A DNA stretch of 64,000 nucleotides, from the NCBI GenBank assembly GCA_025451075.1, contig JANWLA010000041.1:1-64000 (forward strand), read 5' to 3'. The position numbers and the translations under genes were made by a program. Shown in pieces: positions 6,313 to 8,677 of this stretch. Origin of the DNA: Nitrosotalea sp. (GTDB taxonomy: Archaea; Thermoproteota; Nitrososphaeria; Nitrososphaerales; Nitrosopumilaceae). A model generated the notes under the pieces. That model saw only the letters and a program-made list of their open reading frames with translations. It searched no databases and was not told the DNA's origin. Position 1 is the stretch's first letter, and every line of letters begins with the position of its first letter.

Positions 6313-6432
6313 CTATTCTGGGAGTTCTACTTTCCTTGCATCGTGTCGTGAAATTTCTTTATGCATGTCAACATGTGACTTGTCTTTGAAAGTCAGGTTA
6401 CATCTGTAACAATGCCATGCTGTCATGCTCAT
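6313..6432 (-). CDS. single C2H2 zinc-finger protein (39 aa)
   Basis: The frame MSMTAWHCYRCNLTFKDKSH... carries one classical finger, Cx2C-x12-Hx5H. I choose the start at MSMTAW because the finger fills almost the whole protein, as in other thaumarchaeal mini-fingers. The ORF track's longer version adds an unlikely low-complexity N-terminus, though an intermediate start (MNKLCT...) is possible. It lies just downstream of the DHS-like gene's promoter region and is divergent from pepF. Target unknown. Confidence 0.6.
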   Translation of the reverse strand: MSMTAWHCYRCNLTFKDKSHVDMHKEISRHDARKVELPE

Positions 6433-6600
6433 GTCATCTAATACGTATTTTTTGTATTTAAGACGTGTGCACAATTTGTTCATATTATTGATACTAGATA
6501 ATCTTCGGAAAAATCTTCGTGTTACAATAATTAATGTTACAAAACCAAGACGGTCATTTTTCACATAGTATTTTAATAAGAAACCAGAAGTTTGAGTCGG

Positions 6601-8373
6601 ATGCAAGTTTTCAAGGAGCAAAAATGGGATCTAAGCGAACTTGTAGAGGATCCAGAATCACAGCACTTTGAAAGACGCCTAAAATCAATCCAAAATGACG
6701 TCAATAACTTTGAAAAAAACAAAAAGATACTCAAGCCTACCATATCTGAGAAAAAATTCATGTCAATGCTTCATACTTTGGAGTATATCACAGAAGAGTT
6801 TGGCAGGGTTTCAGGCTATGCATCACTAGAGTATTCATCAGACACCCAGTCAGACAAGGCCACATCGCTTGTTTCAAGGATGAGAAAGATGGGGGCTCAG
6901 CTTGAGAACCAGACCTTGTTTTTTGACCAGTGGTGGAAAAAGCAGATTGATGAGAAAAATGCCCAGAGGTTGATGAAGTCATCTGGTGAGCTGCACGAAT
7001 TTTTAAGATACAAGAGACTGCTTGCAAAATATTCCCTAACAGAGCCAGAAGAGAGGATAATCAATACGCTTGATGTCACTGGCCATTCTGCACTTGTCAA
7101 AATATATGATAAAATAACAAATGCGTTCACCTTTGAGGTAAAAATTGACGGTAAGACAAAAAAGTACAACAGAGAGGAACTGTCAGTTTTAATTCGAAGC
7201 CCAAAACCAAGAACAAGAGAGATTGCATACAAGGCGCTATTGTCAGAGTTTGACAAAAACAAGGGAGTCTTGGGTGAGATTTATCAGAACATAGTTTCAA
7301 ACTGGAAGGACGAATGCATCCAGATACGAGGATATGCATCCCCAATATCAGTTCGAAATATTGGAAACGATACAGATGACAAGACAGTAGATGCACTGCT
7401 TGCAGTCTGCAAGAAAAATGCAGATGTGTTTCGCAAGTTCTTTTTGCTAAAGGCACGCATCTTGAAGATGAAAAAATTACGAAGATATGACATTTATGCA
7501 CCAATTCAGAAAAGAGAGGAAAAAAAATACAACTATGACAAGGCAGTAAAACTTGTTTTAGATACGCTAAATGATTTTAGCCCACAACTAAGTGAATATG
7601 CAAAAAGAGTATTTGTCCAAAGACATGTGGACTCGACCATCAGGCCAGGAAAAAGAAGCGGCGCGTTTTGCAGTACAATATCTCCAAAGATAACTCCATA
7701 TGTCTTGGTAAATTTCAAGGGCAGAACAAATGACGTGTTCACTCTTGCCCACGAGTTGGGACATGCAATACACAGCGTAGCAGCTTCTGGAAAATCAATA
7801 TTCATAGCTGAAGCTCCCCTGCCACTTGCAGAGACTGCCTCAACATTTTCGGAAATGTTATTGTTCAACAAAATCTTAGACCAAGTTTCAGATGATGAAC
7901 AACAGTCAATATTGACAGAGCACTTGGACGACATGTATGCCACAGTAGGACGACAGGCATACTTTACGCTCTTTGAGATAGCCGCTCATAAAAAAATTGG
8001 CAATGGTGCCATGGTCCAAGACATAACATCAGAGTACATGAAGACACTCAAGGACCAGTTTGGAAACTCGGTAGATATCACACCAGACTTTGGGACAGAG
8101 TGGACATGCATTCCACACTTTTACCATTCTCCGTTTTACTGCTATTCCTACTCTTTTGGCAATTTACTATCGCTGTCACTATACCAGCGATACAGAAAGG
8201 AGGGACGATCATTTTCCTCCACTTATGTGGACATACTGGCTGCAGGAGGCTCCAAAAAACCAGAAGACCTGCTCAAAGAACATGGAATTGACATTACATC
8301 TGAGAGTTTCTGGCAAGAAGGTTTCGAGTATATCAAAAACCAGACAGATAGACTGAGTAAAGTAGTTAATTAA
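6601..8373 (+). CDS. pepF: M3-family oligoendopeptidase F
   Basis: A cytosolic zinc metallopeptidase that cuts oligopeptides. The HEXXH zinc motif is AHELGHAIHS near residue 384, and the downstream glutamate ligand region (AEAPLPLAETASTFSEML) is conserved for family M3. Length (about 590 residues) is normal. The ORF track starts at a TTG at 6592. I prefer the ATG at 6601 because a TATA-like box (tattttaata, about 6568-6577) would put the transcript start almost on that ATG. A strong inverted repeat follows the stop codon. Confidence 0.92.
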   Translation: MQVFKEQKWDLSELVEDPESQHFERRLKSIQNDVNNFEKNKKILKPTISEKKFMSMLHTLEYITEEFGRVSGYASLEYSSDTQSDKATSLVSRMRKMGAQLENQTLFFDQWWKKQIDEKNAQRLMKSSGELHEFLRYKRLLAKYSLTEPEERIINTLDVTGHSALVKIYDKITNAFTFEVKIDGKTKKYNREELSVLIRSPKPRTREIAYKALLSEFDKNKGVLGEIYQNIVSNWKDECIQIRGYASPISVRNIGNDTDDKTVDALLAVCKKNADVFRKFFLLKARILKMKKLRRYDIYAPIQKREEKKYNYDKAVKLVLDTLNDFSPQLSEYAKRVFVQRHVDSTIRPGKRSGAFCSTISPKITPYVLVNFKGRTNDVFTLAHELGHAIHSVAASGKSIFIAEAPLPLAETASTFSEMLLFNKILDQVSDDEQQSILTEHLDDMYATVGRQAYFTLFEIAAHKKIGNGAMVQDITSEYMKTLKDQFGNSVDITPDFGTEWTCIPHFYHSPFYCYSYSFGNLLSLSLYQRYRKEGRSFSSTYVDILAAGGSKKPEDLLKEHGIDITSESFWQEGFEYIKNQTDRLSKVVN

Positions 8374-8446
8374 AAGCGCCTGGCAGTCAAGCGCCCCCAA
8401 CTGCCAGGCAATGTTCCCCTACGGTTTGAACCGATGTCAAAGACAT
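8374..8446 (-). ncRNA. candidate small structured RNA (minus strand)
   Basis: Read on the minus strand there are three adjacent perfect inverted repeats: ATGTC/GACAT (8434-8446), CGGTT/AACCG (8422-8433) and a 10-bp stem GCCTGGCAGT/ACTGCCAGGC (8378-8409). The last is followed directly by GCTTTT, terminator-like. A TATA-like element (taaattataat) lies about 25 nt upstream of the first repeats on the same strand. No reading frame is apparent. Alternatively the large stem is only the transcription terminator of pepF on the plus strand. Existence of a transcript is inference. Confidence 0.4.
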
Positions 8447-8500
8447 TGTACGTACATTATAATTTAAACCTAGAGTTTAGATCGAGAACTATTTTATTTT

Positions 8501-8677
8501 ATGACGACCATAACTTGCCAAGTGAAATATCCAAGATGCTGCAGTAAAGAACCCGAGTACTTGGTTACTTATGATTGCGGACCAGATCCCCAGCAGACCA
8601 TGCTTGTCTGCAAGAGCCATTTCAAGGAGGAACCATTTCAGAGATTTGCAATAAAGATAGAAAAATTGAGAGAATAA
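8501..8677 (+). CDS. small cysteine/histidine protein (58 aa)
   Basis: Missed by the ORF track. Starting ATG at 8501 it reads MTTITCQVKYPRCCSKEPEY and contains LVCKSHFKEEPFQRF. A Cx6CC group and a Cx2H pair about 23 residues on suggest a single zinc site, the same plan as the 70-residue protein at 4867. A TATA-like attttatttt lies directly before the ATG and a further AT box about 25-35 nt upstream. No known function; conserved layout in two copies in this window argues that it is real. Confidence 0.65.
   Translation: MTTITCQVKYPRCCSKEPEYLVTYDCGPDPQQTMLVCKSHFKEEPFQRFAIKIEKLRE

Follow-up and report, generated by a model that had tools for sequence, protein, structure and literature searches.

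In yeast, the snoRNA snR190 pairs with domain V rRNA in early ribosome assembly and has been proposed to help structure the peptidyl-transferase centre (PTC; PMC8536666), and a chaperone role has also been proposed for the archaeal box C/D sRNAs, which have many antisense elements near the PTC (PMC4644070, PMC7994747). For Haloferax, two reports describe val-tRF, a tRNA-derived fragment that binds the small subunit (30S) (PMC11009984), and a ribosome-associated ncRNA (PMC6104027). The window analysed here, a stretch of 64,000 nucleotides from Nitrosotalea sp. (contig JANWLA010000041.1), almost certainly carries on its minus strand a real and independent RNA gene, whose transcription we infer from the features collected in Table 1; this gene is strongly supported by its promoter, by strand-specific pairing, by compensatory changes and by conservation across two families. 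Like snR190, the predicted RNA is small and complementary to large-subunit domain V rRNA; however, snR190 is a box C/D RNA with a box A site at helix 73 and a second antisense element, whereas the RNA described here has no box C/D and its site is helix 89 and the PTC loop. With the archaeal C/D sRNAs it shares a short length and antisense elements to rRNA, but these bear C and D boxes, usually have two guides and show fast-evolving guide sequences, whereas our RNA has a 3' hairpin with a U-tail and a 5' segment (termed the reader below) that is conserved across two families. A hairpin and rRNA antisense segments are also found in H/ACA RNAs, but the ACA is missing here and the antisense blocks are not split by the hairpin. 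The likeness to the Haloferax ncRNAs is that of small archaeal RNAs acting on the ribosome (an action predicted in our case), the difference from val-tRF (PMC11009984) being that our RNA has its own gene and a 23S antisense. No prior description of this RNA was found in the open-access papers searched.

Table 1. Coordinates of the RNA gene, its predicted parts and its neighbours in the window.
Feature	Position	Strand	Basis or remark
pepF (peptidase M3), convergent neighbour, outside the RNA gene	6592..8373	+	PF01432, E 1.8e-50; ORF
Small RNA gene, ~67 nt (predicted)	8372..8438	-	covariance model match, promoter spacing, conservation in f1 and f3
Predicted 5' end	G8438	-	promoter spacing and where conservation begins
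Predicted 3' end, inside the U-tract	8375-8372	-	
TATA box TTTAAAT	8462..8468	-	24-30 nt upstream of the predicted start
Antisense block 1, GACATCG	8432..8438	-	complementary to 23S C2501-C2507 (PTC loop, E. coli numbering)
Antisense block 2, TCAAACCG	8422..8429	-	complementary to 23S C2488-G2495 (helix 89, 3' strand)
Antisense block 3, GGGG	8416..8419	-	complementary to 23S C2483-C2486
AACA, conserved, unpaired with the 23S site	8412..8415	-	GGGGAACA exact in 46 of 50 homologues
Terminator-like hairpin, 15 bp, loop GGCG	8377..8410	-	10 perfect pairs, extended by G-U and closing pairs
U-tract TTTT, 3' of the hairpin	8372..8375	-	TTT in 29 of 29 genus sequences
Cys-rich protein, 58 aa, divergent neighbour, outside the RNA gene	8501..8677	+	ORF

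At the window locus, the match of the covariance model spans 8371-8442 on the minus strand (99.6 bits). The sequence-only reading had pointed to a TATA-like box on that strand, and the box is confirmed and conserved among homologues: in 153 of 162 aligned homologous contexts, the distance from the first base of TTTAAAT to ACATCG is 30 or 31 nt. The information profile over these 162 contexts is high at the TATA motif, near zero in the spacer and up again two bases before ACATCG, which is the pattern of an archaeal TATA box, spacer and start site and therefore places the predicted 5' end at G8438. BRE-like CAAA letters are frequent in the family and absent from the window itself, and a TATA motif of this kind stands upstream of only 2 of 34 N. 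maritimus tRNAs, a count that is uninformative as to class. At the other end of the gene, the hairpin is preceded by GTTTAAATTATAAT and followed by GC and then TTTT on the minus strand, as had been noted earlier for the GCTTTT end, and this U-tract is conserved on the minus strand. A peptide-coding ORF was rejected: the linkers vary by 1-2 nt between genera, so that the frame shifts and is lost, in agreement with the initial statement that no ORF explains the element.

Three consecutive perfect inverted repeats had originally been reported at this locus and read as stems. All three are present at the coordinates given there, but only the large one (arms GCCTGGCAGT/ACTGCCAGGC at 8378-8387/8400-8409) is conserved as a stem. 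As minus-strand RNA it folds into 15 bp including G-U pairs at -25.8 kcal/mol (z = -5.5; energy matched by 0 of 200 shuffles), and it has the most pairs and the most G-C pairs among the terminator-like sites in 20 kb. The check for compensatory changes in the 10-bp stem that accompanied the earlier proposal was run on the genus alignment and revealed three pairs altered on both sides, with 99.7% of the cells paired and a covariation score equalled by 0 of 500 shuffles. Read as minus strand, 299 of 300 hairpin cells are paired, versus 232 of 300 as plus strand. The inner stem is rich in G-U pairs on the minus strand, and because these turn into C/A mismatches on the plus strand, the RNA is assigned to the minus strand; a plus-strand RNA (a structure in the pepF 3' UTR) was rejected on the same mismatches. 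For the second repeat (8422-8433), full pairing is possible in just 16 of 50 homologues, and the third (8434-8446) has its partner arm, which sits in the variable promoter spacer, in 2 of 50; the small 5-bp stems are thus not kept among these homologues. Going by this alignment, the two repeats are not stems but arise from conserved sequence or by chance, and in place of three consecutive stems we find one conserved hairpin located 3' of a nearly invariant, mostly single-stranded 5' segment.

The gene pepF is present in 33 of the 37 genomes of the window's genus, and the same element occurs at, or a few bases from, the pepF stop codon in all 29 fetched loci with a 3' flank. Within these loci, which were chosen by exact match to the 28-nt minus-strand segment TGACATCGGTTCAAACCGTAGGGGAACA, that segment is identical in 29 of 29, and a looser search (<=6 mismatches) gave the same 29 and no variants; the identity of the pepF protein falls to 69% across the genus while the 28-nt segment stays constant. 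A covariance search in related genomes, as had been suggested, yielded matches far beyond the genus: with model R1 the RNA was found in 205 of 250 genomes of family f1 (21 of 22 genera; 121 of the 131 good genomes) and also in f3, a second family of the same order, nearly always as one copy per genome. Judging by the names of their members, f1 would correspond to the Nitrosopumilaceae and f3 to the Nitrososphaeraceae; holders include Nitrosopumilus, Nitrosarchaeum, Nitrosopelagicus, Nitrosotalea, Cenarchaeum, Nitrososphaera and Nitrosocosmicus. A further model (R2), built on 50 diverse sequences and applied to a sample of the phylum, gave matches confined to f1 and f3 plus one weak match in genome G715 (E 2.9e-4, 397 genomes; the E-values of both models are rough by design) that is taken as chance. 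On this rough scale, nothing better than E = 0.3 was obtained for the genomes tested from f2, f4 and f5 of the same order, and no copy was detected outside the order in the phylum sample searched with R2.

AmoA occurs in f2, in f5 and in g22, a genus with small genomes, all without a detected copy, and the RNA therefore does not simply follow ammonia oxidation; a tight link to it was rejected on account of these AmoA carriers. Genomes G247-G249 of g22 (~0.8 Mb, the smallest AmoA-bearing family genomes) have no detectable sRNA and keep the identical 23S site, which possibly reflects a natural loss. A mobile or viral element was rejected in view of the single genomic copy and of the finding of none in viral contigs. 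Pattern matches outside the archaea (Boseongicola, L135; Omnitrophota, L146; Streptacidiphilus, L183) were dismissed: they do not have the TTTAAAT promoter motif, and their number is about the chance expectation, which we estimate at ~3.

In the f1 loci inspected, the RNA is convergent on the 3' end of pepF, and the minus strand shows a terminator-like stem followed by a U-tract; both observations would fit the two possibilities raised by the sequence-only reading, a regulator acting in antisense on the 3' end of pepF or nothing more than a bidirectional terminator, here between convergent genes. We now consider either of them very improbable. The RNA gene and pepF share ~2 nt at the pepF stop codon, in locus L104 (G121) an ORF of ~164 codons (MNKFITIGDEKVSITEIENAKTI...) sits between the sRNA and pepF and breaks the tail-to-tail layout, and the copies in f3 are not beside pepF at all but are flanked on one side by a secreted-type protein and an Alba-like one (judged by eye) and by others opposite, which means that the function of the RNA is independent of pepF. 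A terminator would leave the conserved 5' part and the promoter unexplained, and on the plus strand no T-run follows the stem. Of the antisense regulator, then, the minus-strand RNA stands and the pepF target falls, and the likely target, 23S rRNA, had not been foreseen. As for the neighbours themselves, the sRNA lies near the Alba-like gene (MSHGKYETGNRKSNEIFIGKKPLMTYVTATLVQLANEP..., identified by eye) in the f3 loci L088-L095. The 58-aa Cys-rich protein (8501-8677; no Pfam match) is divergent from the sRNA in several genomes, other sequence being found there in, e.g., L004 and L010. A small C2H2-like protein (MSMTAWHCYRCNLTFKDKSHVDMHKE..., 6313-6621 on the minus strand; no Pfam match) is divergent from pepF and recurs at this position in many of the genomes of the window's genus.

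Among the 50 homologues aligned with the covariance model, conservation is concentrated in the blocks ACATCG (49), CAAACCG (50) and GGGGAACA (46), separated by linkers that vary in length. In N. maritimus SCM1 (G124), the copy of the RNA gene lies on the minus strand at about 1,076,795-1,076,866. Compared with the rRNA operon of this genome, the RNA has one outstanding site, 23S CGACCCCGCGGUUUGGUACCUCGAUGUC, at -32.5 kcal/mol, in which three blocks are complementary to C2501-C2507, C2488-G2495 and C2483-C2486 in collinear order (the E. coli numbering was verified on the annotated E. coli 23S). We take the C2483-C2507 region to be the 3' strand of helix 89 plus the PTC loop. When dinucleotide shuffles were run over the 6-kb rRNA operon, 0 of 400 reached -32.5 kcal/mol (mean -23.5, sd 1.9, best -30.5). 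In the genome-wide ranking of targets, made in one genome, that of N. maritimus (117,516 windows over the two strands), the 23S site ranks first once the strand complementary to the RNA itself is set aside, the runner-up reaching -27.5 kcal/mol, and the three-block pattern occurs in the sRNA gene and the 23S only. The duplex is retained in 50 of 50 homologues (-28.8 to -34.3 kcal/mol). G2495 faces T (U) or C and no other base, each of which pairs; the RNAs of f3 gain an A-U pair opposite U2496 and have U opposite C2507; L070 has G opposite U2506, with pairing kept; and the pairing of block 3 comprises just 3-4 bp, three pairs in a few genomes, L069 having GGGT. Wherever the 23S site was located in f1, f2, f3 and f5 genomes, its sequence is identical, and this constancy accounts for how little the reader varies. 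When the RNA was co-folded with 105 nt of the 23S, there was still a net gain of ~-14.7 kcal/mol after unfolding of both partners, and in a scan of 60 windows over the 23S the two best (-18.1 and -17.1 kcal/mol) were those containing the site. This complementarity suggests that the helix 89/PTC region of 23S rRNA is probably the true partner to which the RNA would bind.

Hfq-type bacterial sRNAs consist of a 5' single-stranded reader, a terminator-like hairpin and a U-tail. The RNA has this same layout, and other genomic sites reach -25 to -27 kcal/mol, as might be expected of an ordinary trans-acting sRNA whose conserved 5' segment pairs with mRNAs and whose match to 23S is coincidental or secondary. 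We regard this as unlikely, because 23S surpasses the best of these other sites by 5 kcal/mol, the 23S is the only other site of the genome with all blocks, and near-invariance of a whole reader over two families is unusual for mRNA seeds; the RNA also departs from the Hfq type in that its best target is rRNA, not mRNA, and its promoter is an archaeal TATA promoter.

Rfam 15 gave no match above the gathering threshold at the RNA in the window or in the loci L078, L066, L076 and L091, and a known Rfam family was therefore rejected. An unusual modification guide might be envisaged, whose two-sided pairing leaves 23S A2497-U2500 bulged for a methyltransferase or pseudouridine synthase: ~4 rRNA nt between blocks 1 and 2 are unpaired in the duplexes, and predicted C/D-guided methylations cluster near the PTC in archaea (PMC4644070). 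However, an exact box C (RUGAUGA) is present in 0 of 50 homologues, box D (CUGA) in 13 of 50 and both together in 0 of 50, an ACA inside the last 12 nt (ANA box test) was found in 1 of 50, and the two guide blocks are not separated by the hairpin that an H/ACA RNA would require, all rRNA-complementary blocks lying 5' of the hairpin and not flanking it; such a guide is thus quite unlikely. A box C/D or H/ACA guide of the established kind was rejected, the class features being absent among the 50 homologues.

In the mature 50S, helix 89 is paired and buried, and because it is already formed and buried in the finished large subunit, pairing would most likely take place during assembly. In the mechanism that we propose, the RNA's own TATA-type archaeal promoter would drive a minus-strand transcript of ~67 nt, in which a single-stranded 5' reader of ~27 nt is followed by a hairpin and U-tail at the 3' end that would terminate and protect the RNA. 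The reader would pair with 23S in three collinear blocks (GACAUCG with C2501-C2507, UCAAACCG with C2488-G2495, GGGG with C2483-C2486) and may shield the helix 89/PTC strand in pre-50S particles and keep it open there until the RNA is displaced late, acting as a chaperone of large-subunit assembly in the manner of yeast snR190, though built on neither the box C/D nor the H/ACA plan. Conserved rRNA complementarity, one trait expected of snoRNA-type rRNA-folding chaperones, is present here. A ribosome-silencing or hibernation RNA would instead anneal in starvation to the PTC/helix 89 of free or remodelled large subunits and block peptidyl transfer, and block 1 does span the PTC bases C2501-C2507; but annealing to the paired and buried helix of the mature 50S would require its unfolding, and the near-consensus TATA box suggests constant, strong synthesis. 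Silencing thus seems rather unlikely to us, although archaea are known to have ncRNAs that act on the ribosome and regulate or inhibit translation (PMC11009984, PMC6104027). If helix 89/PTC is the true partner, a role as assembly chaperone appears rather probable, and it is assembly rather than inhibition that we infer. For the reading as a whole, an independent RNA gene whose product pairs with 23S and chaperones the formation of the PTC and helix 89, with transcription, binding and role all predicted from sequence, we see about an even chance. Since f2 and f5, which are also families of ammonia-oxidising archaea (AOA), share the 23S site without a detected copy, AOA as a whole do not need the RNA to assemble their ribosomes.

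AOA are among the most abundant cells of oceans and soils, and few of their non-coding RNAs have been described. On balance, we expect that nearly all Nitrosopumilaceae and members of f3 carry an undescribed stand-alone PTC-antisense RNA, which would represent a third kind of rRNA-pairing RNA beside C/D and H/ACA and might chaperone or switch the active site. That a single-copy RNA is kept over two families, with a conserved part matching the catalytic centre, points to a step of ribosome assembly or control not described before, and it makes testable whether archaea, too, have RNA chaperones of the PTC, which in yeast are snoRNAs, beyond the C/D and H/ACA classes. Directly 3' of block 3, the AACA at 8412-8415 on the minus strand is nearly invariant without a partner in the 23S site, and it may serve a further role, e.g., contact with a protein, or pair elsewhere.
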